From Saccharospirillum sp. (lineage in GTDB: Bacteria > Pseudomonadota > Gammaproteobacteria > Pseudomonadales > Natronospirillaceae): 59,007 bases of DNA. The stretch is from positions 1 through 59,007 of the forward strand of contig JAIUML010000027.1 in assembly GCA_022565595.1 (NCBI GenBank). Direction: 5' to 3'. The notes under the pieces were generated by a model. The model saw only the letters and a list, made by a program, of their open reading frames with translations. It was not told where the DNA came from and made no database searches. Both the position numbers and the translations under genes were made by a program. Of the stretch, positions 1-59,007 are shown piece after piece (the first letter of the stretch is position 1; every line of letters starts with the position of its first letter).

Positions 1-86
1 CCTAGAACTCGAACAGTTGCCGCCGCACTTTTGCCATACTGGATGTACAGCTCAATAGCCTTCACCTGATCAGAATATGAATACAT
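1..86 (-). CDS. IS3-family transposase OrfA, N-terminal fragment (runs off the window)
   Basis: Minus-strand reading from ATG at 86 gives MYSYSDQVKAIELYIQYGKS, then AAATVRVL. This is the typical start of an IS3-family OrfA, the small helix-turn-helix protein that is joined to OrfB by programmed frameshifting to make the transposase. A strong GGAGGT ribosome binding site lies just upstream on the minus strand. Only 28 residues are inside the window. It has the same orientation as the IS end at the right edge. Confidence 0.75.
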   Translation of the reverse strand, partial: MYSYSDQVKAIELYIQYGKSAAATVRVL

Positions 87-156
87 GAACTACCTCCAAA
101 GTAGTCCAAGATTTCCGCCGCACCCTCAATGAGGACAAACTAAACTGGTGTTGACA
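1..156 (-). mobile_element. IS3-family insertion sequence, left end (partial)
   Basis: This is the first part of an IS that continues beyond the left edge of the window. Reading the minus strand, similarity to the UbiA-family gene stops abruptly near 157-159. From there the DNA starts with TGTCAACACC, a plausible IS terminus, followed by a good ribosome binding site and an OrfA start. The IS therefore sits inside a second, partial copy of the UbiA gene. The exact terminal inverted repeat and any target duplication cannot be established because the other end is outside the window. Confidence 0.7.
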
Positions 157-573
157 TTGGCGCGATCCTGATTCAATTTATCGGTGTGCTTGCCGAGTAG
201 CACCGAGGTGGGCCCAATGCCGTAAACCACCGAAACCCAAAGCTGCATTGCGGTGAGCTCGCCGGACACCACATAAGCGGCCCCCAGCACCATCAGGGGC
301 CCCCACACCAGCCAGACGGCGGGTTCGCCCAGGCCGATGTACTTGAGGGGCCAAGTGTAGAACAACACAAAGAAGGCGCCGGCCAGCATTGATGGCATCA
401 AACTGGGCTGCGGTAACGGCCAGCAGCATGCCAATGCCGGCCGAGAACAGCGTCATCACAAAGACGGCTGACCGGGTGGCCACAAACCAGCGTTTTGCCA
501 ACCCCATGGCGCGCCAGTCTTGCGCGTCTAGCCGGGGGATTTTGGTTACAACTTCAGCCCAGGTTGGGATCAT
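157..573 (-). pseudogene. UbiA-family prenyltransferase, truncated second copy with internal deletion
   Basis: This is a near-identical partial duplicate of the intact UbiA-family gene at 3361-4365. It keeps the start (MIPTWAEVVTKIPRLDAQ) through the residues around position 64. It then jumps to the segment corresponding to residues 146 onward (LAGAFFVLFYTWPL), and is cut after NQDRA by the IS end. In the intact gene the two sides of the deletion carry GGCCAGCAT (4173-4181) and GGCGAGCAT (3925-3933), 248 bp apart. The loss therefore looks like recombination between short imperfect repeats, and it shifts the frame. The downstream part survives only as a separate open frame. It cannot encode a working enzyme. 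Confidence 0.85.
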
Positions 574-618
574 GAGGGTGTTGCCACTCCTTTTTAAAAA
601 CGTGGATAGCGCCACGCA

Positions 619-1293
619 CTATCTGGAAACCAGACAACCTCGGATATCTGCAAGGCCAATGGTCAACTCTGTACCGGCATTAAAGGCCAGGGCATCAGAC
701 TCGATACCATCCGAGAATACCACGCCATTCATCGGCATCAATGAGCTGAGTACCAGTTTGCTGCTCGCGGTCACTCTGCCCATAACCAGGTGGGTTCCGG
801 TTGTCTGGCTAGGGAAGGGTTCGCGTACCGAGTAGTAGAGGTAGTCCGCTTCCCAAGGGAAGCCACCGACCAGCTCAGTTGGCGGAGCCCTTCCGGCAAT
901 GCCTGCCGCGCCCGCCAGTATGGACTGGAACCAACCGGTACTGCCCAGACCAGTGGAGACGATAATGCCGGAGGAACTTTGGGTTTCCTGTTCGCCATTC
1001 CAGTTGAGCAGGTAGCGGGCCGAGCTGTGGCTTCGGCGAAGGTCACCGATTTTATCGGTGCTCGTGCTGCCAGGGTTTCCACTATGACCTGTTCGGAGTC
1101 CGTTACCCGGAAGGGCAACAATTGGCTATCCCATCGCGCCGGGTCGGGGTTGATGGCGATGACAGGCTGCCCGTTCAGGTATTTCAGAGAGTTGGCTATC
1201 AGGCCATACCGTACAAGACAACACCCGAGGTTGATGGGTATCGCTTTGTGCGCAACATCGATACTTCATGAACGGGTTGACCATGCTCCTTGA
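619..1293 (-). pseudogene. Decayed NAD-kinase-like gene
   Basis: Minus-strand translation in two frames gives recognisable pieces of an ATP-NAD kinase family protein. The upstream piece (about 1240-1030) reads VRYGLIANSLKYLNGQPVIA, then INPDPARWDSQLLPFRVTD. After a frameshift the downstream piece reads SSSGIIVSTGLGSTGWFQS and then MNGVVFSDGIESDALAFNAG, ending at a stop at 619-621. The family normally has an NDLFIG-like segment between the two pieces; it is missing, so there is an internal deletion as well as the frameshift. The N-terminal region is absent. Motifs such as GSTGW and FSDGIE support the family. The upstream boundary is uncertain. Confidence 0.6.
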
Positions 1294-1393
1294 CATGCGA
1301 TTCTTGGGTTGCATAAATGGATTCATGACGACTGACCTGAATCTTGTTTTCAAGGCGCTCTCTGATCTCTCGGGGCGCCGACTAACATCCTGT

Positions 1394-1435
1394 GTAGCCT
1401 ACATTGTTGGGTGGCGCTTCGCTTACCCAACCTAC
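1394..1435. repeat. Palindromic intergenic repeat
   Basis: GTTGGGT (1406-1412) and ACCCAAC (1425-1431) form the stem of a hairpin with a GC-rich loop, flanked by GTAG and CTAC. The pattern of GTTGGGT followed by GCGCTTCGC and ACCCAAC resembles short palindromic repeats scattered between genes in many Proteobacteria. No second copy was noticed in this window, so repetitive status is inferred. I see no gene in the rest of 1294-1657. Confidence 0.45.
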
Positions 1436-1657
1436 TATATTCCGCGTCTTTGCTTACCGTCCCCATGGGCCAATGCGAGTCAAAGTGGCAGCCCAGCAGG
1501 CTATTAATAAATTGGGAATCTGCTGAGCAACTCAAGAATAATGTTTCTGATTGACCATTAGTGGCTATGGCCAGTCGAAAACCAGTACTGCCAATCGACT
1601 AGTGTGCGAGGTTACCCTCTGACACACTAATGAAACGACTCAGGATCAGGAGATCAT

Positions 1658-2248
1658 ATGAAAACGCTCATCACCGAGTTCATTAGCTTAGACGGCGTCA
1701 TACAAGCGCCAGGGGGAGCTGATGAGGACACCGACGGCGGCTTCCGCCATGGTGGTTGGTCAATGAAGTACTTCGACCCGGACGTTATGGGCAGCCAATT
1801 TGAGGAACTGGCCGCACAGAGTGATGTACTCTTGCAGGGTCGCCGCACCTATCAGGCTTCGGCCGCTGCCTGGCCGGGCCGCTCGGGCGATCCATTCACG
1901 GACTGGATCAACAGTGTCCAGAAATACGTCGTATCCGATACATTCACCGAGAAAGATGCAGCATGGAACCCCACCACCATCATTCGTGGCGCTGACTTTT
2001 TGAAGACTGTATCCAAATTACGCGCGAAGCCCGGCGGCTACATCTATGTGTATGGCAGTGCGACGATGGTCAGGTCATTACTGGAAGCCGATCTTGTAGA
2101 TGAGCTACTGCTCACGATTGAGCCAATCATTCTTGGTGGCGGGAAGACGATCTTTGCCGATAATGGAAAGGCGCTCCCATTCAGACTGGAATCAACAACC
2201 AAGGCCAGCACTGGAGCTCAAGTCTGCCGCTATGTTCGGGATCGGTAA
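1658..2248 (+). CDS. Dihydrofolate reductase family protein (RibD C-terminal domain)
   Basis: The 196-residue protein has the layout of small cytosolic RibD_C/YwjB-like reductases. It shows an N-terminal strand with SLDGVIQAPGG, a central LLQGRRTYQ motif, and a C-terminal VYGSATMVRSLLEADLVDEL followed by EPIILGGGKTIF. These correspond to the NADPH-binding and fold-defining segments of the dihydrofolate-reductase-like superfamily. The family includes riboflavin-pathway reductases and many stand-alone proteins of unknown substrate; the latter fits here because no riboflavin genes are near. The ATG at 1658 follows a GGAGATCAT stretch that serves as ribosome binding site. It appears to be a single-gene unit next to the glutathione transferase gene. 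Confidence 0.8.
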   Translation: MKTLITEFISLDGVIQAPGGADEDTDGGFRHGGWSMKYFDPDVMGSQFEELAAQSDVLLQGRRTYQASAAAWPGRSGDPFTDWINSVQKYVVSDTFTEKDAAWNPTTIIRGADFLKTVSKLRAKPGGYIYVYGSATMVRSLLEADLVDELLLTIEPIILGGGKTIFADNGKALPFRLESTTKASTGAQVCRYVRDR

Positions 2249-2422
2249 ATTCCCTGCTGTGGTTCGACGCATACAGCGCCAGTCATGTACTGGACACCAT
2301 TAAGGGAATAGCAGACATGCTCCAATTGAGGAGGCCTATTCCTGACAGAAAGTTCGAGACAGCCACCGAGCTAGCTGGAGCGGGCTTATGAAAGCACTGT
2401 CCTCATTTTTCGGAGAACAATA

Positions 2423-3076
2423 ATGACCGACTTTATACTCACTACATTCGATTGGGTGCCTGACATCCCTCGCGGTTACGTACGCGACCTGCGCGTGCGC
2501 TGGGCGCTGGAGGAGTCTGGTTTGCCTTACCGGGTCGAAAGCGTCACATTTGGTGAGCGCGGTGAAGACCATTTCGCACACCAACCGTTCGGCCAGGTCC
2601 CATGGCTGACCGATGGGGATACCTCGATATTTGAGAGCGGCGCAATCCTTCTTTATTTGGGAGAGCGCAGTACCGCTCTAATGCCTCACGACCTGGCGGC
2701 ACGGAACAAGGTGATTGGGTGGTTGTTCGCGGCACTCAACTCTGTCGAAATGGCAACCGTTCCCTGGTCTCTCTTCATGTTTTCACAAGATTCTGAGGAC
2801 ACTCCAGGGCGCAGAATGCTGGAAAATTTTCTGGCGAGTAGACTCCGCCATATGGAGAAGGTTCTGTCCGAAAATGAATGGTTGGCTGAGTCGTTTTCTA
2901 TTGCAGATATCGTTATGTCTGATGCGTTGCGCCTGGTCGATCGCTTCGACGGATTAGCGCAACATAAAGCTTGCCGTGAATACATCGCCCGAGCCACGGC
3001 TCGTCCAGCCTTCAAAAAAGCGCATAAGGATCAGTTGGCTTTCTTTGCCGCAGAGGACGCTAGAAGGAATACCTGA
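2423..3076 (+). CDS. Glutathione S-transferase family protein
   Basis: The protein has 217 residues, the normal size for a cytosolic GST. The N-terminal thioredoxin-like half contains GQVPWLTDGD and IFESGAILLYLGE, the cis-proline and Glu/Ser glutathione-binding motifs. The C-terminal half has the all-helical pattern with FSIADIVMSDALR, matching the conserved SIAD capping box. It probably conjugates or isomerises a small electrophile using glutathione, but its substrate cannot be read from sequence. The Dabb-domain gene follows 26 bp downstream, so the two may be co-transcribed. Confidence 0.85.
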   Translation: MTDFILTTFDWVPDIPRGYVRDLRVRWALEESGLPYRVESVTFGERGEDHFAHQPFGQVPWLTDGDTSIFESGAILLYLGERSTALMPHDLAARNKVIGWLFAALNSVEMATVPWSLFMFSQDSEDTPGRRMLENFLASRLRHMEKVLSENEWLAESFSIADIVMSDALRLVDRFDGLAQHKACREYIARATARPAFKKAHKDQLAFFAAEDARRNT

Positions 3077-3102
3077 CTCAATAGCCTCATATGGAGAAAT
3101 AG

Positions 3103-3417
3103 ATGATTCGTCACATACTACTCATCAAATTCAAGGCCTCATCTGAGTTGTCTGAAATAGATAGACTCAGAACGCTATTCGAATCCATGCCACAGAAGGT
3201 AGAAGGTGTGACTTCTGTCGAATGGGGTTTGAATGACAGCCCGGAACACATGAATCAGGGCTACACTCACTGCGTGTTTATGACGTTCGCCAATGAACAA
3301 GGTCGACAGAATTATTTGCCTCACCCTGAACATGAAGCATTGAAGGAAGTATTCAAGCCTTTACTGGAAGACATCGTGGTATTCGATTACCAGGCTAAAC
3401 ACTATCCCCAGCACTAG
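3103..3417 (+). CDS. Dabb (stress-responsive alpha/beta-barrel) domain protein
   Basis: This 104-residue protein has the dimeric alpha-beta-barrel pattern: MIRHILLIKFK at the start, EGVTSVEWGLNDSPE, YTHCVFMTFAN, and a C-terminal HPEHEALKEVFKPLLEDIVVFDY. The His-Pro-x-His and VVFDY segments are typical of Dabb proteins, which act as small enzymes or ligand binders; the role here is unknown. Its 3' end overlaps the tail of the convergent UbiA-family gene by 57 bp, which suggests that the two genes were brought together by rearrangement. Confidence 0.8.
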   Translation: MIRHILLIKFKASSELSEIDRLRTLFESMPQKVEGVTSVEWGLNDSPEHMNQGYTHCVFMTFANEQGRQNYLPHPEHEALKEVFKPLLEDIVVFDYQAKHYPQH

Positions 3418-4365
3418 CATGGCGCTGAACACTTTGTTGTAGTTAAAGGCGAATGCCACCAAGTACAGCGGCCAGACATCTTCCGGCACATCTGCAGGCC
3501 GTTCGGTCGGGCGAGGCTGCCGGAATTTTCTTACGGTAGTAATAAAGCTTGGTAGAGCAAGCCAGACCAGTAAAAACCAGAGACTCAACACGCCAGTCAA
3601 CACGCCCAGCGTCAGTACGCCATATTGCATTACCCACAACACCAGAGTGAGGGTTCGACTACCCTGCTCTCCCAGAATCACTGGCAGGGTATGCACACCC
3701 TTCGCTCGGTCCTGGTTCAACTTGTCGGTATGCTTGCCCAGCAATACCGAGGTAGGCCCGATGCCGTAAACCACCGAAACCCAAAGCTGCATTGCGGTGA
3801 GCTCGCCAGAGACAACATAGGCCGACCCCAGCACCATCAAAGGCCCCCAGACCAGCCAGACGGCGGGTTCGCCCAGGCCGATGTACTTGAGCGGCCAGGT
3901 GTAGAACAACACGAAGAAGGCACCGGCGAGCATGAAATAAAGCGTTGTCAGGTCTGTGCGGAGAACCAGTACGGCTCCAACCGCCAGGGCTGCGGCGCCG
4001 GTGAGTGCTATGTAGCCTAGCATCTGGCGCTCTGTGAGCAGGCCGTCTTCCAGGGGTTGGGGGCCATATTGGGTGCGGAAGTAGTTGTCTTTGTCCACGC
4101 CCTTTTTGCTGTCTGTCCAGTCGTTCAGCAGGTTGTTGGTGGCATGCGCCAGCACCAACCCCAGGCATACCAGGCCAGCATTGATGGCATCAAACTGGGC
4201 TGCGGGAACGGCCAGCAGCATGCCAATACCGGCCGAGAACAGCGTCATCACAAAGACGGCTGACCGGGTGGCCACAAACCAGCGCTTTGCCAACCCCATG
4301 GCGCGCCAGTCTTGCGCGTCAAGCCGGGGGATCTTGGTTACTACTTCAGCCCAGGTTGGGATCAT
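3361..4365 (-). CDS. UbiA/MenA-type prenyltransferase
   Basis: This is a polytopic membrane enzyme of 334 residues. The first Asp-rich prenyl-diphosphate motif is visible as NDWTDSKKGVD (residues 81-91). The second is visible as DKLNQDRAKGVHTLPVILG. About eight hydrophobic segments are present. The spacing resembles MenA-like members (1,4-dihydroxy-2-naphthoate polyprenyltransferase), though the aromatic acceptor cannot be determined. It starts at 4365 after a purine-rich AAAGGCGGG. It lies 80 bp downstream of the citrate synthase gene in the same direction. A damaged partial copy of it lies at 157-573. Confidence 0.8.
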   Translation of the reverse strand: MIPTWAEVVTKIPRLDAQDWRAMGLAKRWFVATRSAVFVMTLFSAGIGMLLAVPAAQFDAINAGLVCLGLVLAHATNNLLNDWTDSKKGVDKDNYFRTQYGPQPLEDGLLTERQMLGYIALTGAAALAVGAVLVLRTDLTTLYFMLAGAFFVLFYTWPLKYIGLGEPAVWLVWGPLMVLGSAYVVSGELTAMQLWVSVVYGIGPTSVLLGKHTDKLNQDRAKGVHTLPVILGEQGSRTLTLVLWVMQYGVLTLGVLTGVLSLWFLLVWLALPSFITTVRKFRQPRPTERPADVPEDVWPLYLVAFAFNYNKVFSAMLVLGIVFSLVIEYHDVFQ

Positions 4366-4445
4366 GCCGGGTTAGCCCGCCTTTCAGATCAGTCGATAAC
4401 ACCTGACTCTATCTGAAAACCGAGCAACCCTGAAGCCCGGGGCGG

Positions 4446-5549
4446 TCAATCGCCGATGTACAGCGCGCGTGGCCGAATCAACCGAGCATCGTTCTGGAAT
4501 TCGTGGTAATGCGAGACCCAGCCGAAGACCCGGCTGCAGGCAAAGAAGGAGGTGAAATACTGCTCCGGGATGCCCAGGGCCAGGTACACAGCGCCTTTGT
4601 AGAACTCCAGGTTGGCATGGATTTCCTTGCCCTTTTCGCTGAATACGGCCTGGCAGGTGTCTTCCACCGCTACCAGGGTTTCCATCAGGTTTTGCCATTC
4701 AGTGCCTTCACAGAACTGGCGCGCCATCGGCTTGAGAATGACGGCACGTGGGTCCAGTGCTTTGTATTCGCGATGGCCCATGCCCATGATCTTGACCTTG
4801 TTCGCCAGCGCATCGCGCACCCAGGCGTCGGCTTTTTCCGGTGAGCCAATTGTTTGCGCCATGATCACAGCAGCTTCGTCGGCACCGCCGTGAAGAGCGC
4901 CAGACAGCGCACCAAGGCTGCCGGCCACACTGGCTTGCAAACTGCCCTGAGTACTGGCGATCACCCGGCCTGCGAAAGTGCCGGCATTGAAGCTGTGGTC
5001 CAGTTGCAGGATCTGGGTCGAGTTGATTGCCTCCAGTGCATCGGCAGAGGGCGCCTTGCCCTGAATGCCATACAGCAGGGTTTCCAGAAAACCCAATCCG
5101 GCGGGCAACACACGAACCTGGCCCAGAGTACAGAGGTTATGCCAGACGCGCACGACGCCGTTCAGCCGGGCGGCCAGTACCAGGCCGTCATGCCATTGTT
5201 CAGCCACGAAGTCTGGCACTGCTTGATTGGGTGTCAGGTTGGCAACGGGTGCCAGGCACTGTAACACCGCCATCGGGTGCAGAGTGCGCGGCAGTTGTTC
5301 CAGCAGGCGCAGTTCGGTCGCGGTCAGTTCAGACTCGGCCGCCAGCCAGAAATCCAGAGCGTTGACCTGCTCTTCGCTGGGGTGCTCACCCGTCATCAGC
5401 CAGTAGGCAACACCGGCGAATGGCTGTTTGACCAGCTCCTCGATGCTTTCGCCGCGGTATGTCAGACGGCCGATCTCGCCTTCTACATTGGACAGGCGCG
5501 TTGCGCCGACGATAACGCCTTCGAGACCTGAATTGATGTCGGTTGTCAT
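4446..5549 (-). CDS. Citrate synthase family protein (citrate or 2-methylcitrate synthase)
   Basis: The 367-residue cytosolic protein carries the family landmarks. These are LYGIQGKAPS, QLDHSFNAGTFAGRVIASTQ, the active-site region LSGALHGGADEAA, MGMGHREYKALDPRA, NLEFYKGAVYLALGIP and the C-terminal FGWVSHYHEFQ with RPRALYIG. It condenses oxaloacetate with acetyl-CoA or propionyl-CoA. At 367 residues it is the short bacterial type shared by PrpC and CitZ, and no prpB or prpD is nearby. The start is supported by AAGGTGA upstream. A LysR gene is divergently transcribed 97 bp away and is a likely regulator. The position between UbiA and LysR does not show a particular pathway. Confidence 0.85.
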   Translation of the reverse strand: MTTDINSGLEGVIVGATRLSNVEGEIGRLTYRGESIEELVKQPFAGVAYWLMTGEHPSEEQVNALDFWLAAESELTATELRLLEQLPRTLHPMAVLQCLAPVANLTPNQAVPDFVAEQWHDGLVLAARLNGVVRVWHNLCTLGQVRVLPAGLGFLETLLYGIQGKAPSADALEAINSTQILQLDHSFNAGTFAGRVIASTQGSLQASVAGSLGALSGALHGGADEAAVIMAQTIGSPEKADAWVRDALANKVKIMGMGHREYKALDPRAVILKPMARQFCEGTEWQNLMETLVAVEDTCQAVFSEKGKEIHANLEFYKGAVYLALGIPEQYFTSFFACSRVFGWVSHYHEFQNDARLIRPRALYIGD

Positions 5550-5646
5550 AGAGTCACCTTCAATACCGTTCGGGATGACTATTAAACGCCCGCTCTTTTG
5601 GTTAATCTAATTAAACTTTATTAATTAACGATAAGCTGAACTGATC

Positions 5647-6573
5647 GTGCGCTTCGAAAACAGTGAACTGCGTATCTTCTTGAGTGTGGCAAGAACCGGA
5701 GGTTTTCGGTCGGCCGCAGCGGACCTGCACCTGACCCAATCGGCGGTCAGCCAGTCGGTAAAACAGCTGGAGACCAAGCTGGGCGTGCCGCTGCTGGTGC
5801 GCGAACGGCCGGTTCGGCTCACCCCGGCGGGTCGGCGGCTGTATCGCTACGCGGATGATCAACGCCAGCAGGAGCAGCAGGTGTTCAGTGACCTGAACCG
5901 TCTGTCTCGCGGGCTGGACCAACGCCTGACCGTAGCGATCGACAGCACCAACAACCGCTTTGCAGGCGCCGAGTTGATCTCGGTGTTCAATCGGCGCTGG
6001 CCGGAGGCGCGCTTGCGCATTATTGAGCAGCCCTCGCGGACGATCGTGCAATCGGTCATCAGTGGAGAAGTCGAGCTGGGGCTGGGACCCTTTCAGACCC
6101 GGATGGATCGGTTCGAACGCATACCGCTGTATCGGGAAAAGCGCTTGTTGATGATCAACCCCAGCAAGCCCATTCACAGCGGCGAGCTGACGCTGGCCGA
6201 TCTGCAGCGCATCCCCCTTTTGGTATCCTCCCTGGACGAACCCGATCAGCGCCCCTATCAGGAAAAGCTGCGCGACCGCTTTCAAATGATCTGGCAGATC
6301 AGCAGCCTGAACGTGCGCCTGAACCTGATCGACCAGGGGCTGGCGGTTGGCTACATCAGTACAGAGGTAACGCGGCAACTGCCGCAAATACAGCACTTCC
6401 GGCCCTTGCTGGAGTTCGATTTTGCCAGCATCGAACGCCAGGTCGGGGTTTTTTACCGATCCGATCGGGAACTGAGCCCGGTTACCAGTGACTTCGTTCG
6501 GGTGTGTCAGGCGTTCTGGCAGGACAGGCGCGCACTGATCTCCAGCGAGGAGGCTCAGGGTTTCCCTGTTTGA
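5647..6573 (+). CDS. LysR-family transcriptional regulator
   Basis: The protein has 308 residues if translation starts at the GTG at 5647. The N-terminal winged helix-turn-helix reads LRIFLSVARTGGFRSAAADL, then TQSAVSQSVKQLE and LLVRERPVRLTPAGRRL. The C-terminal part is the periplasmic-binding-like effector domain. It is divergent from the citrate synthase gene, and the 97-bp AT-rich spacer (5550-5646) probably contains its operator, so it may control that gene. The inducer is unknown. The ribosome binding site is weak, so the start is uncertain. A long antisense frame across this gene is a shadow. Confidence 0.85.
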   Translation: MRFENSELRIFLSVARTGGFRSAAADLHLTQSAVSQSVKQLETKLGVPLLVRERPVRLTPAGRRLYRYADDQRQQEQQVFSDLNRLSRGLDQRLTVAIDSTNNRFAGAELISVFNRRWPEARLRIIEQPSRTIVQSVISGEVELGLGPFQTRMDRFERIPLYREKRLLMINPSKPIHSGELTLADLQRIPLLVSSLDEPDQRPYQEKLRDRFQMIWQISSLNVRLNLIDQGLAVGYISTEVTRQLPQIQHFRPLLEFDFASIERQVGVFYRSDRELSPVTSDFVRVCQAFWQDRRALISSEEAQGFPV

Positions 6574-6684
6574 AACCGGGATGATCAACCTGGCAGAAAC
6601 TTTGCGGAGTTTTCGAATAGAGGGTTCTTGCTGAGCACAGAACAGGTTATGGTGGCGGTTCTTTGCTCAGGTACTCAGACGACC

Positions 6685-7302
6685 ATGCTGATTCGGTTCT
6701 ACCAGAACATTCGTCGCAACATACGCGAAGACGGCCTGATCGTAAGCAGTTCGGGCTTTCTGGTGCGAGCCATGCTGCAACGCATTGATTTCGATCAGGA
6801 CTTGCGGATTCTGGAAATTGGCAGTGGTCGCGGTGCTTTTACCCGCGAGTTGATTGCGAGAATGTCCCCCAATTCCAGCCTGGACATCTGCGAAATCAAG
6901 GCCGAATACAACCCCCTGGTCGAGCAGATCATGGGAGCGAATGCCGACAAGAACGTTCACTTGCACAACTGCTGCGTAACAACCTTGCTGACCAGGCCCG
7001 ATCACTACGATGTTATTCTCTCCTCATTGCCGTTAAAAAGCCTTGAAGACCCGGCAAGCGACAATGCCTTTCTGTATCAGATTCTGACCGCCGTTCAGTT
7101 TGCTTTGAAAGAAGGCGGCTCCTACCTTCAGTATCAGTACTTCAAAAGCAACCAGTCCGACATAGAACTGGTCTTTGGCAAGAATATGGACGCCGTCAGC
7201 TTCGTGCCCTTGAATATTCTGCCTGCTTTTGTCTATCAGATGTCCAAGTCAGTCAGCTCCTCAACCGAGACTTTGCATTCCGGGCGGTCTGGAGCCGCAT
7301 GA
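6685..7302 (+). CDS. Class I SAM-dependent methyltransferase, phospholipid N-methyltransferase-like
   Basis: This is a small class I methyltransferase. The SAM-binding motif EIGSGRGAFTRELI is followed by LDICEIKAEYNPLVEQ. Motif IV-like DVILSSLPLKSL and an FYQNIRRNIREDGLIVSSSGF N-terminus recall phosphatidylethanolamine N-methyltransferases (PmtA-like) and related dimethylases, where the SSSGFL stretch precedes the Rossmann fold. The frame is open from 6628. ATG at 6685 gives 205 residues and an N-terminus matching the conserved part, but 6649 is possible. The stop overlaps the ATG of the membrane protein gene downstream (ATGA), so the two are translationally coupled. Confidence 0.65.
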   Translation: MLIRFYQNIRRNIREDGLIVSSSGFLVRAMLQRIDFDQDLRILEIGSGRGAFTRELIARMSPNSSLDICEIKAEYNPLVEQIMGANADKNVHLHNCCVTTLLTRPDHYDVILSSLPLKSLEDPASDNAFLYQILTAVQFALKEGGSYLQYQYFKSNQSDIELVFGKNMDAVSFVPLNILPAFVYQMSKSVSSSTETLHSGRSGAA

Positions 7303-7901
7303 CAAAAGAGCTCGATGGAAAACTTGAAAAACTGCAGCATCTGAATTTTTTCGGGCTATATCTGTGGCTGGGTTTGATAACCTTTAGCCTGTCGCTGTAT
7401 TTTTTTCGCCCGGATCTGTTCAACCCACAGCATATTCGCCAGTTTTTTACTGAAAATCTGATCAGCGGCCTCTTCATATACTTTGTCATTTCAACGTTGC
7501 GTGGTTTGACGTTAATCCCTTCAACTCCGATCTTGCTCGCTGGCATTCTTGTGTTTCCACCTTTGCCATTGTGGATCGTCAATCAATTTGCCGTCTACTC
7601 TTCCTCCGCCATTGTCTATTACCTGGCGCGCCACCTGGGCTTTGATCGCTACTTCCATGCCCACTATCCGACACAGATATCGCGCCTCAGCCTACTGTTG
7701 AAAAAAGCAGAACTGACGGTTATCTCCACATGGGGATTTTTGCCCTTTGTACCCAGTGACTTGATTGTCTACGTGTGCAGTGTGTTGCGCGTAAGCGTAG
7801 TCAAGACGCTGCTTGGTATATCCATTGGCGAAGGGGTCATCTGTGCTATTTATATTTTTGGTGGTGCGTACAGTATGAATCTCTTGCTTGAACTGCTGTA
7901 A
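7299..7901 (+). CDS. VTT-domain (TVP38/TMEM64/DedA-like) membrane protein
   Basis: The 200-residue integral membrane protein has about five hydrophobic segments. A conserved VTT-type core covers TLRGLTLIPSTPILLAGILVFPPLP, then YYLARHLGFDRYF and WGFLPFVPSDLIVYVCSVLRVS. The paired helical hairpins and the FxPF.PSD motif fit the VTT/DedA superfamily, whose members scramble or translocate lipids. It overlaps the lipid-methyltransferase-like gene by 4 bp, supporting a shared membrane-lipid function; this is an inference. No clear terminator follows. 7902-8145 contains only an inverted repeat (GGGCAG at 8089-8094, CTGCCC at 8107-8112) before the next gene. Confidence 0.75.
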   Translation: MTKELDGKLEKLQHLNFFGLYLWLGLITFSLSLYFFRPDLFNPQHIRQFFTENLISGLFIYFVISTLRGLTLIPSTPILLAGILVFPPLPLWIVNQFAVYSSSAIVYYLARHLGFDRYFHAHYPTQISRLSLLLKKAELTVISTWGFLPFVPSDLIVYVCSVLRVSVVKTLLGISIGEGVICAIYIFGGAYSMNLLLELL

Positions 7902-9522: not shown

Positions 9523-9540
9523 CCAAGGCGCATCAAAAGC

Positions 9541-10710: not shown

Positions 10711-10873
10711 GCCACCCTCTCCCTTGCCTGCGTGTCAGCATGGTTTGACTCCAGATGTTCGATTATTGGCCTCAGCCAATGTTCACCCAGATGATGGCAG
10801 CTGTCTGTGCGGTATCAAACCCTTGGGTCAGGCGAGTTCATCACCCTTCTGAAACCCTCTGCACTGTTGTTTG

Positions 10874-52023: not shown

Positions 52024-52110
52024 GTAGTCTCCTGTAGACAGAGCTGGCAAAACTGAAAATGCAGCAACAGGACGTTGCTACATTTTTTCAAGCTAACCCA
52101 TAGCCGTCGT

Positions 52111-53196
52111 TCAAACACCCAATGAGCGAGCAGCCATAAAGTCACGTTCGGTGATCTCGGAGTATGGCCGTACAACGCTGGTAAACTCGTTGATCGAGTT
52201 ATTGATCCGAGTTGCCAATGCATTTCCTGCCGCAGCCTCAGAGACGACCTGCATGGATGCCTTATACATATCCCTCAGGAAATCATTGTTGAAACTGGCC
52301 ACGGTTACATTCGGATGATTTTCCCGAAGATCCTTGAGCGCCATTGCGTTTTTGGCGACAAACTCGCTCAGCACCATCTGGTTAGCATAGATATTGGCAC
52401 CGCGCACGATCTCCTTTAGATCGTCATCGAGTTCGTTCCACGAACGCTCATTGACGAAACAATCCAGGACACCGTTTGGCTCCAACCAACCAGGCCAGTA
52501 ATAATGACTCGCCACCCGATGCAGACCAAACGCCATATCATTGAAAGGTCCAACAAAATCGAGACCATCCAGGGTTCCGTTTTCCAGCGCCTGGGGCACC
52601 TCGCCAAGCGCCATTTGTACCGGCACCGCACCGAAAGTCTGAATAGCACGACCGGCCAAGCCACCGATGCGCACCCGAAGACCCTGTAAATCACTGGAAG
52701 AGTTGATTTCCCGGTTGAACCAGGTGCCCTGCACGGAAGTATTCCCGCTGGGGAAGAACTTCAGGCCGAACTCAGCATAGAGTTCATCGATGACTTCCTG
52801 ACCGCCCCCCCACTGGAACCAGGCATTCTGTTCCTGGGAGGTCATGCCAAATGGCAGCGGGGCAAGAAATTGAAAACCGGGATGCTTGCCACCCCAGTAG
52901 GCAGGGTAGCCATGGCCCATGTCCAGCGTTCCATCCGAGACCGCATCGAAGACTTCCAACGGACCGACAACGTCACCCGCATTGAATACCCGTACGGTCA
53001 ATCGTCCGTTGGAGGCCTTATTGATGTAGTCGGCAACCAATTGAGGCCCAGTGGACAACAGTGGAGAATTACGGGCCCAGGTACTCTGCATTCGCCATTG
53101 TTTCGCTCCGGATGCAATTGCAGGTGCACTTATCACTGACGCACTTGCTCCGACAAGTCCGGCCCCGGTATAGCCAAGAAATTCACGTCTTTTCAT
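52111..53196 (-). CDS. dctP: TRAP transporter solute-binding protein with Tat signal
   Basis: The 361-residue protein begins MKRREFLGYTGAGLVGASAS, a twin-arginine signal peptide (RREFL) likely cut after IASG or nearby. The mature part is of the DctP group that binds 2-oxo or other monocarboxylates, with WARNSPLLSTGPQLVADYIN, DLQGLRVRIGGLAGRAIQTFGAVPVQM, GEVPQALENGTLDGLDFVGPFND and SYYW-like ASHYYWPGW. Tat export of folded DctP proteins is known. The gene lies 87 bp upstream of the Mo-hydroxylase gene in the same direction, so the ligand is probably the pathway substrate. Confidence 0.85.
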   Translation of the reverse strand: MKRREFLGYTGAGLVGASASVISAPAIASGAKQWRMQSTWARNSPLLSTGPQLVADYINKASNGRLTVRVFNAGDVVGPLEVFDAVSDGTLDMGHGYPAYWGGKHPGFQFLAPLPFGMTSQEQNAWFQWGGGQEVIDELYAEFGLKFFPSGNTSVQGTWFNREINSSSDLQGLRVRIGGLAGRAIQTFGAVPVQMALGEVPQALENGTLDGLDFVGPFNDMAFGLHRVASHYYWPGWLEPNGVLDCFVNERSWNELDDDLKEIVRGANIYANQMVLSEFVAKNAMALKDLRENHPNVTVASFNNDFLRDMYKASMQVVSEAAAGNALATRINNSINEFTSVVRPYSEITERDFMAARSLGV

Positions 53197-53264
53197 TGCG
53201 ACACTCCTCCCGATTACAACTCTGCGTTATGCAAGAGTTTGATTAACCGTGATACACGGTTTTA

Positions 53265-54632
53265 TTATAAAAATGCGGGTAACCACAAAGCTAAATTTGG
53301 CCAAACCCATATCAGCACCACACAGAGCAACTGAAGTCCAACAAATGGGACAACACCACGGTAGACCGCTTTCAGGTCAAGCCCTGAAACAGCGCCCTGC
53401 AAATAGAAAATGGCGTAACCAAAGGGTGGGGTCAGGTAGCTGGTTTGCAGCACGATTGCAGCCACCACACCGAACCACAGCGGATCGACACCCAGAATGA
53501 TTAGCGGTGGCACGAAAACGGGTACTATGATGAAAATGATCTCGAAAGTGTCGAGCATGAACCCCAGAATAAACATCACGAATAGAACCAGCAGTGTGGC
53601 ACCAAACAGCCCCCCGGGTATGGCTTCCATAACATTCAGAATGACGTCTTCACCGCCCATTTGCCTGAAAACCAACGACATGATTGTCGCGCCGATCAGG
53701 ATGGTAAAAATCATTACACTGATATTCAGAGCAGATTGCGCAGCTTCCCGCAGGACACGCCAGGAGAATTGACGCCCGAGCACTGCAAGAATACAGGCCC
53801 CGACACCCCCAAGCGCGGCTGATTCAGTGGCCGTTGCAATACCGGCCAGAATAGAGCCCAATACCAGCACAATAAGAACAAGAGGCGGCAACATGGTCAG
53901 GGCGACACGCTTTAATAACGTTCGCCGTTCTTCGACATTCATGCGAATCGGCGGGCATGATGTCGGCTTGAAAAGCGCCCAGATACCCATGGTAACAAGG
54001 TACAAAACAACCAGAAGCACCCCGGGTATCAGCGCAGCTGCAAATAGATCGGTAATACTGAAGCTGGCACCGCTGAAAATGCCCTGTGACAGCATCGCCT
54101 GCGTATTGGCGTCCTGAAGCATCACGCCTAGCAGGATTAAAACGGTTGAAGGTGGGATGATCTGGGCTGTCGAGCCAGAAGCACAGATCAATCCGCTTGA
54201 CAACTCCTGGCTATAGCCCGCCCTGCGCATTACCGGCAAGCTAATCAACCCCATTGCCACAACAGTAGCACCAACTACGCCGGTAGAAGCAGCGAGCAAG
54301 GCACCCACAACGATAACCGCCACGCCTAGCCCGCCGGGCAAGGAGCCAAACAAATGGGACATTGTTGTCAGCAGGTTCTCCGCAATGCGTGAGCGTTCAA
54401 GCACAGCGCCCATAAACACGAACAGTGGTATGGCCACCAAAGTTTCATTGGTCATAACCGAATAGATGCGTCCCGGAATGGCACCCATCATCACCATGTC
54501 GTAAACCCCGAAATAGGAGGCAATGGTTGCTACCAGAAACGCTGACCCACCAATGGCAAGGGCAACCGGAAACCCGCTCAATAGAGCCAGGATCAGACAG
54601 ACGAATAGAAGTAAAATAAATAACTCAACCAT
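53265..54632 (-). CDS. dctM: TRAP transporter large permease, DctM family
   Basis: The 455-residue membrane protein has DctM motifs: LLSGFPVALAIGGSAFLVA, ETLVAIPLFVFMGAVLERSRIAENLL, ASTGVVGATVVAMGLISLPVM, GSTAQIIPPSTVLILLGVML, GIATATESAALGGVGACI and TPPFGYAIFYLQG. It overlaps the dctQ gene by 8 bp and precedes dctP. It is a different lineage from the dctM at 20077, being longer and with the inserted region around residue 180-215. Confidence 0.9.
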   Translation of the reverse strand: MVELFILLLFVCLILALLSGFPVALAIGGSAFLVATIASYFGVYDMVMMGAIPGRIYSVMTNETLVAIPLFVFMGAVLERSRIAENLLTTMSHLFGSLPGGLGVAVIVVGALLAASTGVVGATVVAMGLISLPVMRRAGYSQELSSGLICASGSTAQIIPPSTVLILLGVMLQDANTQAMLSQGIFSGASFSITDLFAAALIPGVLLVVLYLVTMGIWALFKPTSCPPIRMNVEERRTLLKRVALTMLPPLVLIVLVLGSILAGIATATESAALGGVGACILAVLGRQFSWRVLREAAQSALNISVMIFTILIGATIMSLVFRQMGGEDVILNVMEAIPGGLFGATLLVLFVMFILGFMLDTFEIIFIIVPVFVPPLIILGVDPLWFGVVAAIVLQTSYLTPPFGYAIFYLQGAVSGLDLKAVYRGVVPFVGLQLLCVVLIWVWPNLALWLPAFL

Positions 54633-55146
54633 GTGACTGCTCTTCCGTGGTTGGATTTCGAAGGGTAATGATTGAGCGGATGACGAGGCTTAAACCCTGC
54701 AAGGCAAGCAGTATACAGAACGCCAGAAGGCAGGATTTAAGCAAGTACATAAAAGGCAAACCGCCGAGGGTCGGTGATTGCTCAAGCACACGCCATGATC
54801 TTGAAATACCGGGCAACGACTTGATGGCAATGACGTACAGCATGGGCCACAGCAACACGACAGTGCCCACAATATTGACGATAGCCTGCCCTCCCTTGGA
54901 CAACTTACCGTAAAGAAAATCAACTCGGACATGCTTGTCGACGCACAGCAAATAAGGTGCAGCAAGCATGAAAGCTGCGCCATTCAGCCACACGTAGATT
55001 TCCGACAGCCACGGATAGCCTACTCCAAAGCCATATCGCAGTACTGCCACCAATGCACAGACAAACACCACGATCGGCATAGCCCATTTCAAGGCATCGC
55101 CTATCATTAGGTTTAGCTTGTCAATGAGATCAGCAATAACTTTCAT
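54625..55146 (-). CDS. dctQ: TRAP transporter small membrane subunit, DctQ family
   Basis: The 173-residue protein has four helices with the DctQ core AVLRYGFGVGYPWLSEIYVWLNGAAFMLAAPYLLCVDKHVRVDFLYGKLS. AAAGGGGGC precedes the ATG. It is the first gene of the long minus-strand unit dctQ-dctM-dctP-three Mo-hydroxylase genes, which may read through to the oxygenase genes. Confidence 0.88.
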   Translation of the reverse strand: MKVIADLIDKLNLMIGDALKWAMPIVVFVCALVAVLRYGFGVGYPWLSEIYVWLNGAAFMLAAPYLLCVDKHVRVDFLYGKLSKGGQAIVNIVGTVVLLWPMLYVIAIKSLPGISRSWRVLEQSPTLGGLPFMYLLKSCLLAFCILLALQGLSLVIRSIITLRNPTTEEQSHG

Positions 55147-55656
55147 AAGCCCCCTTTAAAACAATTGAATTTGAACAGTAGGTCGCCGGTAGGGTTGTCG
55201 CCCATCAAACGGCCTGATCGCAACCTTCAGCTTTTTGGACTACACCAAACGCGACTTCTAACCCAGGCACTCGTCGGGAGCCAGTAATTGCACCAAGGAA
55301 TTTCCCAAAAGTGTCCGAATGTTTTTTAAGTTATCAGTACACCAATGATTTAAACGTATCTCAACATCCCTGCAGTTGCAAGACTGATTTTTCAGCATCA
55401 CTTGAAAGTGTAGTTAAATTGCACTCTTCCCGATGATTAATGCAAGTAACATTCCAGCAAATCAGGAAAATGCGTTCAGGCTCGACAACTAATGGAGACT
55501 GCGAGAATCAGAATACAAACCGACCCCCTTAAGATCCAAGAGTACCAGGCATATGCGCACCATAATCATGCATGAATGCGCCATTTTCGCTCGACTACAA
55601 CAGATTGACAGCGACGGCGAGACACAGGTTAGTAAGGCCAGGAACTCACGCTCTCT
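55147..55656. other. Intergenic region upstream of the TRAP/Mo-hydroxylase operon
   Basis: No gene was recognised in these 510 bp. The promoter of the dctQ operon should lie here, but I saw no TCAG-TATA-CTGA palindrome, so this unit may be controlled differently from the nicD, oxygenase and nicX units. Confidence 0.4.
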
Positions 55657-56541
55657 TTAAACTTGCTCAGAGCCCGAAAAACGCATCATGCACCACCCCC
55701 ATACGGCATCCGCCGCCTTGTTGTAGACGGTTTGTCGTTTGCGAACCAGGTAATAACTGGATTCCAGTCTCATGACAACATCGGTAACCTGCAAAAGTCG
55801 ACCTGACTCAAGATCTTTTGCCACGAAAGGCCGACAAGCTAATGCTACCCCCTGACCCGCCATAGCGGCATCCAGAGCCAGCGTAGTTTGGTTGAACACC
55901 GGCCCCGGCAAACCGTTCTCAACACCCAGAAACCTGGGCCATTGATTGAGCGCATCATGAAGCAATGGCAACCGCAAAAGTTGTTCCGCAGAAAGCGGCT
56001 GAGGCAAATCCGTAACCAGCAGCGGGCTTGCCACCGCGACCAGATCCTGACTAAACAGCAACTGGAAATCGAGCGAAGGCGGAAAAGGCGGGCGGGTCAG
56101 TCGAACCGCAATATCGACCTGATCACGATCAAAATCAGACAACGCCTCTGTGGCCACCGTGCGCAGCTCCACATCAGGCAATACTGCATTCAGCTCCGCC
56201 AGGGCGGGGATAAGCATGCGAGCGGCAACTGTAGGCGTCACACTGATGGTCACTGCCTCGGGGCTGTCGAGGAACCTGCCTGTCGCCTCCCCAAGAATAT
56301 CGAAGGCGCGTGTCACTTCAGCCAGATAAACGGCACCGTGAGCAGTGAGTTTCAGCCCCCTGGGCAGGCGCTGAAAGAGTGCAGTTCCCAACCGTTCTTC
56401 CAGGGCCCTAACCTGCTGCGCAACAGCACCCTGAGTCACTCCCAGTTCTTCTGCAGCAACCCTGAAATTGAGTCGGCGGCCAGACACTTCAAAGGCCCGA
56501 ATGGCATTGAGTGGCGGCAGTTTCCGACGTGAGTGCACCAT
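55657..56541 (-). CDS. LysR-family regulator, GcvA-like
   Basis: The 294-residue protein begins RRKLPPLNAIRAFEVSGRRLN, then FRVAAEELGVTQGAVAQQVRALEERLGTALFQRLPRGLKLTAHG, the GcvA/AmpR subgroup helix-turn-helix. The effector domain follows. It is divergent from the short-chain dehydrogenase gene, 86 bp away, and is probably its regulator; it may also act on the TRAP operon downstream. The intergenic GTAG-TTTTT-CTAC hairpin near 56550 could be part of the site. Confidence 0.85.
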   Translation of the reverse strand: MVHSRRKLPPLNAIRAFEVSGRRLNFRVAAEELGVTQGAVAQQVRALEERLGTALFQRLPRGLKLTAHGAVYLAEVTRAFDILGEATGRFLDSPEAVTISVTPTVAARMLIPALAELNAVLPDVELRTVATEALSDFDRDQVDIAVRLTRPPFPPSLDFQLLFSQDLVAVASPLLVTDLPQPLSAEQLLRLPLLHDALNQWPRFLGVENGLPGPVFNQTTLALDAAMAGQGVALACRPFVAKDLESGRLLQVTDVVMRLESSYYLVRKRQTVYNKAADAVWGWCMMRFSGSEQV

Positions 56542-56627
56542 GATATAGCCTGTAGTTTTTCTACATTATGACATGTTTATTTATCGCTCGAAAGTTAAAG
56601 GTTTTCCGGCCAGAATAAGGGCAAATC

Positions 56628-57350
56628 ATGGCAAAGGCGTCGGAAATGTCCACACAGAAAGTAGCAATCATCACAGCAGGGGGCTCCGGAATCGGAGCGG
56701 CGGCTGCTCGCAAACTGGCCGAAGAGGGTTACCATGTGGCCATTCTTTCTTCGTCCGGCAAGGGCGAAGCCCTGGCCAAGGAATTGGGTGGCATTGGCGT
56801 GACCGGATCCAATTTGGAAAACGACGATGTGCGCCGACTGGTGGACATGACCATGGACAAGTGGGGTCGTGTTGATGCACTGGTAAACTCAGCCGGTCAC
56901 GGTCCGCGCGCCCCCCTGATGGGCCTTACTGACGACGACTGGCATCAGGGCATGGAGGTCTATTTCCTGAGCGCAGTCAGATCGATTCGTCTCGTCGCGC
57001 CAATTATGGAATCTCAGGGCTCGGGTGCAATCGTTAATATATCTACTGCATGGACTGTCCAACCAGCAAGCATTTTCCCGACGTCAGTCGTATTCAGAGC
57101 TGGCCTGGCAAATTTCGCCAAACTTTTCGCGGAAGAGTTTGCACCCAAAAACATTCGCATCAACTCGGTGCTACCTGGCTGGATTGACAGCCTGCCTACT
57201 TTGGACGAGCGACGTGACAGCGTGCCGATGGCGCGTTACGGAACAACCGAGGAGATGGCCGCCACCATTGCGTTCCTGCTCTCCGAGGGAGCCGGTTACA
57301 TCACCGGGCAAAACATTCGCGTCGATGGCGGCGTGGTGAGGTCAATCTGA
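56628..57350 (+). CDS. Short-chain dehydrogenase/reductase fold protein lacking the catalytic Tyr
   Basis: The 240-residue SDR-fold protein has the cofactor motif VAIITAGGSGIGAAAARKLAEEG, VDALVNSAGHGPRAPL and IVNISTAWTV with a Ser, and the C-terminal LPGWIDSLPT and GYITGQNIRVDGGVV. In the active-site helix, where YxxxK is expected, it reads PTSVVFRAGLANFAK: Ser occupies the Tyr position and Arg the Lys position. The enzyme is therefore atypical, possibly a dehydratase-like or non-catalytic member. AAGGG precedes the ATG. It is convergent with nicX and divergent from LysR; its part in pyridine degradation is unclear. Confidence 0.75.
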   Translation: MAKASEMSTQKVAIITAGGSGIGAAAARKLAEEGYHVAILSSSGKGEALAKELGGIGVTGSNLENDDVRRLVDMTMDKWGRVDALVNSAGHGPRAPLMGLTDDDWHQGMEVYFLSAVRSIRLVAPIMESQGSGAIVNISTAWTVQPASIFPTSVVFRAGLANFAKLFAEEFAPKNIRINSVLPGWIDSLPTLDERRDSVPMARYGTTEEMAATIAFLLSEGAGYITGQNIRVDGGVVRSI

Positions 57351-57358
57351 TGACCGTA

Positions 57359-57390
57359 GAACAAGTTGGAAGGGACCTCACAACCTGTTC
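57359..57390. terminator. Inverted repeat between convergent SDR and nicX genes
   Basis: GAACAAGTTG (57359-57368) and CAACCTGTTC (57381-57390) pair at nine of ten positions across a 12-base loop in the 61-bp gap of two convergent genes. It may serve as a two-way terminator, though there is no T-run. Confidence 0.4.
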
Positions 57391-57411
57391 TTCCGTTCGC
57401 GTTCGCCAACG

Positions 57412-58443
57412 TTACTTTGCCGGTATGATGATTTCCTTTTTCACTATGTCTCCATCTACGACGATAGGCTCATCATCCAGAAACAGTGAACAATTTCTCA
57501 TGGGGATGTCCAGGTGGCAGGCCGTGTCATTGGTTCCGCCCAACTCGCTATTTGGACCCGTTGAAAACATGACGTTGCCATAGAAGCTCCGGGGCTCCAT
57601 GCCCATACCGCCAGGGAACTCGCCTGGAACCATCCGGTGCCATTTGGCATCTCTGTTCATGCCCCACCCCACATGGCTCATTCCAAAGCCGCGCTTGTCA
57701 TCAAAGCTGGCCATGTACGACTTGACGAGATCAGCTTCCAGTCCGCCCCGAATATCCGTAATCCAGCCCTTTTCGATGGTGTAGGTAATGGGCTCGCGAA
57801 CATAGATGTTCTGCGGCAGCAGAATATCGCCTGGTCCTACCACGATGGTGCCATCGACTCCGTCATCGTCACCGCCTGTAAAAACAAAGCCTGATGGCCA
57901 GTGATCCCAGCGCCCTGGTTCATCGGTGCAGGCGTATTCAGTGATCGTCGGATAAGTGTTCATCTTGTAGACGACGTCGGTGCCATTCGGCGAAGTAATC
58001 CTCATCTCTTTTGCTCTGGCAAGAATCTCCCCGGCAGCCTCTACCTTCTCTCGCAGCAGCGGGTTGGGCATCATTCTCGCTAACAACTCCGGTGGCTCTA
58101 CAACGGTAAGAACACGAGTTCCAGCCGCCTGTATGGCCATTTGTTCTGGAGAGAACAAAAGAAACATGCAGTCAATCAGCATGTCGCACTGCTTAAGCGC
58201 CTCTACCGCCTCAGGCATGGAAGCCAACCCATTAACACCCACAGCCCAGCCTCCAGATGGCGGAGGAGCAGGCAGGCGCATATGATACATGTTGGCCTTG
58301 AGTTGCTGTCCGGCGGCCAGAAAGGCATCAGCGTAATCCAGTCTTTCATTGCCTTGCGTGAGTACTATCAGGCGCTCTCCTTCACGCACCCCGGACATTT
58401 TCAACTGCTGCAGGCAGATCTCAATAAAGCTCGCGTGATCCAT
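57412..58443 (-). CDS. nicX: 2,5-dihydroxypyridine 5,6-dioxygenase
   Basis: The 343-residue protein resembles NicX of Pseudomonas putida, an Fe(II) extradiol-type dioxygenase with a leucyl-aminopeptidase-like fold. The three iron ligands are visible as His257 (GMSHVGWGMN), His310 and Asp312 (DTACHLDIPM). All three sit at a constant offset of 8 from His265, His318 and Asp320 of the P. putida enzyme. It opens the pyridine ring to N-formylmaleamate, the substrate of NicD. PicD is the picolinate-pathway name. ATG 58443 is chosen for its AGGAG site; the frame is open to 58488. It stands alone with its own promoter, apart from the other lower-pathway genes. Confidence 0.93.
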   Translation of the reverse strand: MDHASFIEICLQQLKMSGVREGERLIVLTQGNERLDYADAFLAAGQQLKANMYHMRLPAPPPSGGWAVGVNGLASMPEAVEALKQCDMLIDCMFLLFSPEQMAIQAAGTRVLTVVEPPELLARMMPNPLLREKVEAAGEILARAKEMRITSPNGTDVVYKMNTYPTITEYACTDEPGRWDHWPSGFVFTGGDDDGVDGTIVVGPGDILLPQNIYVREPITYTIEKGWITDIRGGLEADLVKSYMASFDDKRGFGMSHVGWGMNRDAKWHRMVPGEFPGGMGMEPRSFYGNVMFSTGPNSELGGTNDTACHLDIPMRNCSLFLDDEPIVVDGDIVKKEIIIPAK

Positions 58444-58464
58444 GACTGTTCTCCTGTAAAATAG

Positions 58465-58476
58465 GAAGTATACTTC
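58465..58476. promoter_or_regulatory. Palindromic operator before nicX
   Basis: GAAGTATACTTC is a perfect 12-bp palindrome, 22 bp upstream of the nicX ATG. It shares the AGTATACT core with the elements at 37600 and 47568, and GAAG-TATA matches the half-site before nicD. It is probably bound by the MarR protein at 43397-43906. Confidence 0.6.
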
Positions 58477-58500
58477 TCTTTTTAACAATAATAGCCGTAA

Positions 58501-58882
58501 TTGATGGGTAATTGCGAATCTGATGTGGTTTTTTTTGTTACACAGCAGTTCGAGAAGGCTGTGTCCGCTCGCTTCGCGGCGCTTTGCCTATGGATGCCTT
58601 GCCTTTCGCAAAGACTTGGCCAAATGGTCAACATTCCGTCCCAATGCGGTGAAAACGAGTACGATTCAGGATTTGACGCACTAAAATGAAAAATCTTCGC
58701 ACTGTCCTGGCGCTAACGCGATGCAGGGATGCAGGGATGCACTACCAAAATCAAGTCCCTGTGTTCCTGACTTTGCAGACCAGGAAATAACCTATTTTTT
58801 CTGAGCGACCTACATAAATGGCAGGAAGCCATTTACCAATGAAAACTATCTATTAGAGTGTATAAAGCTGGATGTTGATACC
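58501..58882. other. Intergenic region next to the right IS
   Basis: No convincing gene is present; the one short frame (62 residues) has no recognisable motif. There is a short tandem repeat, GATGCAG-GGATGCAG-GGATGCA, around 58718-58742 and a hairpin AAATGGC/GCCATTT near 58817-58835. The IS end begins at 58883. Confidence 0.4.
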
Positions 58883-59007
58883 TGTAGTTGCCCCCGCTAA
58901 ACCGGACACCACCTCATTCATTTGATACAAGGTCAGCCCGATACTCCCAGGGCGACTTCATCCTCAGCCCTTTATGTGGATGGCTTCGATTATAGTCTTC
59001 TATCCAC
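58883..59007 (-). mobile_element. IS3-family insertion sequence, right end (partial)
   Basis: Beginning at 58883 with TGTAGTTGCCCCCGCTAAAC, a plausible IS3-type terminus, the DNA continues into the end of an OrfB gene on the minus strand and runs off the window. Its orientation equals that of the IS at 1-156. Whether the two are copies of the same element cannot be tested, because one shows the left end and the other the right end. Confidence 0.7.
58914..59006 (-). CDS. IS3-family transposase OrfB, C-terminal fragment
   Basis: The minus strand reads WIEDYNRSHPHKGLRMKSPW, then EYRADLVSNE, to a TGA at 58914-58916. The W...YN..RPH..L...P.E..-type pattern is the conserved end of the IS3-family DDE integrase domain. 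Only 30 residues are inside the window; the catalytic residues are not visible. Confidence 0.8.
   Translation of the reverse strand, partial: WIEDYNRSHPHKGLRMKSPWEYRADLVSNE

Follow-up and report, generated by a model that had tools for sequence, protein, structure and literature searches.

Contig JAIUML010000027.1 of Saccharospirillum sp. (assembly GCA_022565595.1), a stretch of 59,007 bp that we call the window, carries catabolic genes between the truncated ends of two IS3-family insertion sequences (ISs) lying in the same orientation. Does this frame delimit a mobile unit, or does it merely record where the assembly stopped? An earlier sequence-only reading had left both answers open: a composite-transposon-like island that could excise through its two IS copies, or an assembly broken at repeated IS copies, with a mobile setting for the pht, mob and pic genes implied in either case. 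From comparisons within the same genome and with relatives, we are all but certain that the two ends mark where the assembly broke in unlike ISs and are not the arms of a transposon. The apparent IS frame around the catabolic block is ordinary. This removes a false lead: an IS at both ends is normal for a draft contig and is no proof that the catabolic genes travel together.

Two different insertion sequences at the contig ends

Both IS ends described in the sequence-only reading are present in the sequence, on the minus strand. OrfA of the left element (IS-L) starts at 86 and leaves the window at its left end (MYSYSDQVKAIELYIQYGKSAAATVRVLG), and the C-terminus of OrfB of the right element (IS-R) comes in across the right end and reaches its stop at 58914-58916 (WIEDYNRSHPHKGLRMKSPWEYRADLVSNE). 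Their nature is beyond chance, as both recur exactly at the ends of other contigs of the same genome. The 5' end of IS-L lies at the left of the window (contig C27) and at the end of C3, whereas its 3' end (CCGCACCCTC) opens C8 and C39 and closes C65. The 3' end of IS-R lies at the right of C27 and at the ends of C8 and C9, and its 5' end at the ends of C39 and C46. Read from these contigs, the termini are GAGGGTGCGG and CCGCACCCTC for IS-L, and TGTAGTAGCCCCC and TGTAGTTGCCCCC, i.e., TGTAGT(A/T)GCCCCC, for IS-R, which runs from ERRRRYSAQEKA... to ...YNRSHPHKGLRMKSPWEYR. The IS-L protein has MYSYSDQVKAIELYIQ (MYSY...) at its start and WYNEARIKMSLGGISPIEYR at its end (the last part translated by eye); that of IS-R ends in YNRSHPHKGLRMKSPWEYRADLVSNE. 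A terminus of IS-L at 156, where ubiA similarity resumes at the next base, was ruled out by the other own-genome copies, which place it at 127.

Relatives of IS-L OrfA and of IS-R OrfB are annotated as IS3 family, and one relative of each (P0001 and P0002, respectively) carries rve and HTH_21 domains. Together with the inverted terminal repeats seen in the own genome, the rve domains of these relatives place both elements in the IS3 family. IS-L also shows a short target duplication where C3 and C39 flank a copy: the 3 bp TCA are duplicated, and the joined flanks form one frame of 939 codons, PAS-GGDEF-EAL-like by eye. This duplication and the continuous frame indicate that IS-L makes simple insertions in this genome and that C3 and C39 are linked. 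For the C27 copy no duplication was seen. A search for IS-L relatives in 369 genomes of the class matched two at E <= 1e-60 (one of them by a full-length element), and none were found at E <= 1e-100 in the 34 genomes behind our collected loci.

IS-L and IS-R are different IS types of the IS3 family. Exact identity between IS-L ends and IS-R ends extends over 10 bp at most, and an IS-R relative on a Klebsiella plasmid has an OrfA and an OrfB that are both unlike those of IS-L relatives. The sequence-only reading had proposed to check whether the two copies are identical and to abandon the excisable island if they belonged to different IS types; since their proteins and termini differ, the island falls on the reading's own terms.

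Elsewhere in the genome, the gene adjoining the IS-R end is, by eye, 2-oxoacid dehydrogenase E2-like on C8, NHL-repeat-like on C9 and hsdM-like on C46. In one relative (G001, contig C79, locus L020), an IS-R-like 3'-end remnant at about 1349-1439 (89%) is situated where a frame that looks tyrosine-recombinase-like by eye ends.

Why the contig stops where it does

The own genome is a draft assembly of 66 contigs (4,767,865 bp, 99.94% complete), and a search of it returned the entire window, 1..59007, as contig C27. The left 127 bp of C27 are identical to the final 127 bp of C3, and its right end matches the ends of C8 and C9 exactly over 125 and 124 bp. The same lengths recur among the other contigs. 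The longest exact overlaps of IS-L ends are 127 bp for C27/C3 and C8/C39 and 126 bp for C8/C65 and C39/C65; those of IS-R 3' ends are 125 bp for C27/C8, 124 bp for C27/C9 and 123 bp for C8/C9. All of these overlaps reach to within 4 bp of the contig ends. Of the four kinds of end common to several contigs, three show them. Their lengths suggest that the assembler used a k-mer of 127. The inner part of neither element is closely matched on any own-genome contig, the nearest being a distant IS3-type gene on C59 (26%). End overlaps of 123-127 bp, combined with IS bodies that are missing from the contigs, are the pattern left when an assembler with k = 127 meets a repeat. We propose that a short-read assembler halted at each end of C27 on entering a multi-copy IS. 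On the left it met an ISKpn38/ISAtu3-like element at its 5' end, on the right an IS3-family element of another type at its 3' end. The alternative offered in the sequence-only reading, that of an assembly broken at repeated IS copies, is therefore the one that stands, as these IS ends also terminate other contigs.

Some observations weigh against this account. The IS-R 5' ends of C39 and C46 overlap exactly over 76 bp only, offset by 51 bp from the end of C39, because those two IS-R copies differ, and the simple k-mer picture does not cover that pair. Furthermore, no 3-bp duplication connects the left end of C27 with C8, C39 or C65 (2 bp, TT, with C8 only), and none of six pairs of IS-R ends shows a target duplication of 2-8 bp. 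The missing duplications suggest that the IS copies at the ends of C27 may have a rearranged history.

Alternative explanations and distribution in relatives

A composite transposon would require two copies of one IS to bracket the catabolic block and to move or excise it. Both ends are indeed IS3-family ends in the same orientation, and the search of relatives did not find the block as a unit. The two IS types, however, differ in their proteins and terminal repeats, with at most 10 bp exactly in common, and for this pair of ends we regard the explanation as refuted. Judged from the sequenced ends, the IS bodies being unassembled, so little exact sequence is shared that IS-L and IS-R presumably could not excise the block by recombining with each other. 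A larger unit is conceivable, in which C27 is joined to C8 through IS-L to give about 232 kb with inverted IS-R copies at its outer ends. C27 on its right and C8 at its end both stop at the 3' end of IS-R, and a 29-bp tip beginning TGTCA lies beside IS-L at both the C27 left end and the C8 start. The join has no supporting target duplication beyond the 2 bp, no movement was seen, and inverted IS copies are expected to invert the intervening DNA rather than excise it. We consider such a unit quite improbable.

To see whether the block has a fixed place in relatives, we made three DNA searches of the own genome and of 23 relatives, five of them of the same genus (at most 12 candidates per genome were scored, and weak matches may escape). 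A stretch with citrate synthase and LysR genes (about 4.4-6.6 kb) is present in 5/5 same-genus genomes at 71-85%, one of which (G005) is a single contig. Matches to the left part in another relative (G004) form four stretches on its contig C1, far apart at about 0.18, 0.51, 1.70 and 2.50 Mb. From 20 to 40 kb the matches are scattered, among them the mobA-like gene at 68% in G001 and 71% in G004, the pht5-like gene at 73% in G004, and nic-type genes of G027 at 67-69%. Between 40 and 58.9 kb, the top-scoring match outside the own genome, in G010, covers 948 bp at 65%, while the longest, in G028, extends over 1,063 bp at 63%. The catabolic part as a unit (12-58.8 kb, with otn-like, pht-like, mobA-like and pic genes) was not found among the 23 relatives.

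These data show the catabolic block to be accessory and at no conserved place; that it moves as one piece does not follow. A fixed chromosomal place in related species, which the sequence-only reading had named as a further ground for giving up its island, was likewise not found among the 23 relatives. Its claim that both readings imply a mobile setting for the pht, mob and pic genes is not borne out, since an assembly break does not imply mobility. The data go only as far as the failure to find the 12-58.8 kb part as a unit among the 23 relatives, and there is no sign of movement as one piece. A genomic island or plasmid may have delivered the block by another mechanism, with the ISs arriving later, and the same absence, together with the clustering of pic genes in distant bacteria, would fit such an origin. 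On the other side, no integrase, relaxase, replication gene or transposase was seen among the 48 of 52 chosen open reading frames (ORFs) that were scanned for families. The left-part citrate synthase occurs in all five same-genus genomes, including the single contig, and a plasmid search with positions 1-25000 as query gave a single match covering 5%. Delivery of this kind therefore seems rather unlikely to us, if a good deal less remote than the two transposon-like schemes. The DNA between the ISs is accessory and probably chromosomal, with catabolic modules presumably gathered in separate events.

Gene content of the window

The features of the window are collected in Table 1. Family scans (Pfam and NCBIfam) covered 48 of the 52 chosen ORFs, the other four being TRAP components and an SDR named by eye, and they bore out the presence of catabolic modules with their transporters between the IS ends.

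Table 1. Features of the 59,007-bp window, with the basis of their assignment.
Feature	Position	Strand	Content and basis
IS-L 5' end	1..127	-	Terminal repeat GAGGGTGCGG reading inward from 127; start codon of OrfA at 86; truncated at contig end
29-bp IS21-end-like tip	128..156	-	TGTCAACACC...TTGTCCTCATT, directly outside IS-L; ubiA-like sequence resumes at 157
ubiA-like remnant	157..593	-	Truncated at 157, internal deletion; paralogue of 3361-4365
General genes	1658..11815		RibD_C, GST, Dabb, UbiA, citrate synthase, LysR, methyltransferase-like, VTT, aldehyde dehydrogenase, M24 peptidase, Exo_endo_phos (Pfam)
otn-like module	12103..21360		LysR, cupin, HpaI-type aldolase, alpha/beta hydrolase, SBD_N/NBD_C kinase, class II aldolase, TIM-barrel isomerase, DctPQM TRAP transporter (Pfam)
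nadC (quinolinate phosphoribosyltransferase)	22171..23031	-	TIGR00078, 305.7 bits vs. cut-off 198.4
Phthalate-like module	23203..33230		Reductase, dehydrogenase, MarR, class II aldolase/decarboxylase, EamA-like, fused TRAP permease and TAXI protein, pht5-like, pht3-like (NCBIfam)
Flavin aromatic hydroxylase, mobA-like	33759..35732	-	NF006144 (phenol 2-monooxygenase), 1049.7 bits vs. cut-off 560
pic (picolinate) module	36654..58488		MocA-like, PicE/G/F/C-like, MFS, XdhC-like, MarR, PicB small subunit, fused 955-aa PicB, three PicA subunits, TRAP, LysR, SDR, PicD/NicX-like (NCBIfam/Pfam)
TRAP	52111-55146		Named by eye, outside family scans
SDR	56628-57350		Named by eye, outside family scans
IS-R 3' end	58883..59007	-	End TGTAGTTGCCCCCGCTAAACCGGACACC; OrfB stop at 58914-58916; cut by contig end

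Beside IS-L, the ubiA-like remnant aligns (blastn) to its paralogue in two parts, 157-389 to 3701-3933 at 88% and 381-593 to 4173-4384 at 94%; the ubiA-like gene itself is intact about 3 kb away. A candidate gene on the minus strand at 5611-6588 was rejected, the plus strand there encoding a LysR regulator. The names otn-like, for the module at 12103..21360, and mobA, for the hydroxylase, are assignments that we presume rather than derive from the scans, and some of the pht gene names are of the same kind. Within the phthalate-like module, which nadC adjoins, NCBIfam cut-offs were passed only by the fused TRAP and TAXI models, and the pht names reflect weak similarity.

In the pic module, putative homologues of PicA, PicB and PicC stand together with those of PicDEFG at 37763-58488, and similar clusters occur in other genomes as well, as would be expected of a pic cluster. 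None of the pic-like proteins scanned reached a curated NCBIfam cut-off; the picC-like product had no NCBIfam match and the picD-like product no Pfam match. By comparison with the pathway in the available text of PMC10142695, the 36.7-58.5 kb region would encode a pic-like set for the conversion of picolinate to fumarate. At 44651-47518 lies a 955-aa fusion of ferredoxin, reductase and ring-hydroxylating oxygenase large subunit, which at least 20 of the best 80 genome-contig loci match over nearly its whole length (64% in Alloalcanivorax). Among 80 loci picked by PicB similarity, twelve hold at least 9 of 15 pic markers, and in three of the twelve, from metagenome-assembled genomes (L030, L031, and L035), the pic cluster also contains homologues of all three TRAP genes (47-61%). 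With such clusters of markers elsewhere, the pic module is of a known kind, and the pht-like and mobA-like modules are, like it, ordinary in kind.

IS21-like tips beside the IS-L group

IS3-family elements are rather unspecific in their targets. At the left of the window, the 29 bp directly outside IS-L (TGTCAACACCAGTTTAGTTTGTCCTCATT) have a TGTCAAC tip that resembles an IS21 end and does not conform to the strict IS21-like motif used below; no istA or istB was seen in the contig. Similar 29-bp tips adjoin IS-L at the start of C8 and in two relatives (G004 and G011). We then gathered 33 copies of the IS-L group with 58 readable flanks, from 26 plasmid loci, locus L139, four own-genome copies, G004 and G011, and scored them for TGT-N17-TG(A/T)(C/G)C, a regular expression that was written after the flanks had been seen. 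The own C27, C8 and C65 were counted separately, though two of them may be both ends of one copy. Not counted were three G016 ends, the G055 fragment, L148, which has no tip, and L149, whose TGT tip at 29 falls outside the strict motif.

The strict motif was found in 25/58 flanks and 22/33 copies, compared with an average of 0.17 flanks after shuffling, and in 0/7 IS-R-type flanks. The distance from tip to IS in these 25 flanks was 26-29 bp in 15, 37-40 bp in nine and 70 bp in one (L145), and 21 of the 33 copies belong to one of the two main classes (L022, L023, L135-L138, L139, L142, L143, L146, L150-L157, and L159-L161). The spread inside each class we take to come from G runs at the boundary. 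Among the last 12 plasmid loci, which were chosen without sight of their flanks (the motif being written later), 11 fit and L158 did not. istA or istB is annotated beside the IS in 5/26 plasmid loci (L143, L146, L150, L157, and L161), and at L143 a second repeat-like stretch lies on the other side of the IS.

On balance, we lean towards the view that the ISKpn38/ISAtu3/ISBmu11 group prefers IS21-family terminal repeats as targets and enters them at one of two set distances from the tip, about 29 or about 40 bp, which differ by one helical turn, and that the left edge of the window is one such nesting. IS21 ends are described in the available text of PMC10122671 as having two direct repeats per side, both required by IstA. 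An IS inserted about 29 bp from the tip would lie beyond the first repeat, and in so doing it may split the L1 and L2 that IstA needs and cripple the host element. Target preference is the simplest mechanism for the observed spacing, and a unit of tip plus IS moving together may be an alternative.

Several points count against a target preference. Eleven of the 33 copies lack the strict motif in all their readable flanks (L133, L134, L144, L147, L158, C27, C3/C39, C8, C65, G004, and G011); among these, inspection by eye shows a looser tip in C27, C8, G004, G011 and L147 and a TGAGCC-like end in L144. C3/C39, the proven simple insertion in a gene, and C65 are without any tip. Moreover, some copies are not independent of one another: tips from several Rhizobiaceae are nearly the same. 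Two pattern scans of viral contigs (two matches and none, respectively) led nowhere.

Our searches of the open literature gave no report of IS21-tip targeting, which is weak evidence of absence, nor did the available text of PMC3281130, and this pattern is the sole part of our analysis that may be new. If the preference is real, IS3-family elements would gain a clear target that can be tested at the bench, and the repeated nesting of ISs on plasmids would be explained.

Comparison with known systems

Full-length relatives of IS-L include elements annotated as ISKpn38, ISAtu3 and ISBmu11. Members of this group share with IS-L an MYSY-type OrfA start, an OrfB ending in YNE.RIK.SLG..SPIEYR, and ends of the form TGCGG...TTGGAC, whereas only the first 127 bp of IS-L lie in the window. 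The first 28-29 residues of IS-L have 61-62% identity to an A. larrymoorei protein and 69% to a Pandoraea copy. We take this group to be IS150-like and IS1353-like, and the L146 element to be IS1353, although its record says IS3 family only; IS1353 sits in IS1326, and there are papers in which both names occur. IS-R, which is presumably IS2-like, resembles an IS3-family element on a plasmid of Klebsiella pneumoniae J1 (WP_187106155.1) in its OrfB end (EDYN..HPHKGL.M.SP.EYR) and in its ends (GCCCCCGTTTAAACCGGACAC), with about 68% identity over 28 residues, only 125 bp of IS-R being in the window. A Marinobacter plasmid fragment is closer, at 83% over 30 residues.

The pic module is likened, through the pathway description, to the pic clusters of Alcaligenes faecalis JQ135 and Bordetella bronchiseptica RB50, with which it appears to share homologues of the PicA subunits, of PicB to PicG and of a MarR regulator. 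Two differences stand out. The window cluster has a TRAP transporter inside it, and its PicB ferredoxin, reductase and oxygenase large subunit form the single 955-aa protein, whereas the available text of PMC10142695 lists picB1B2B3B4 for the known cluster.

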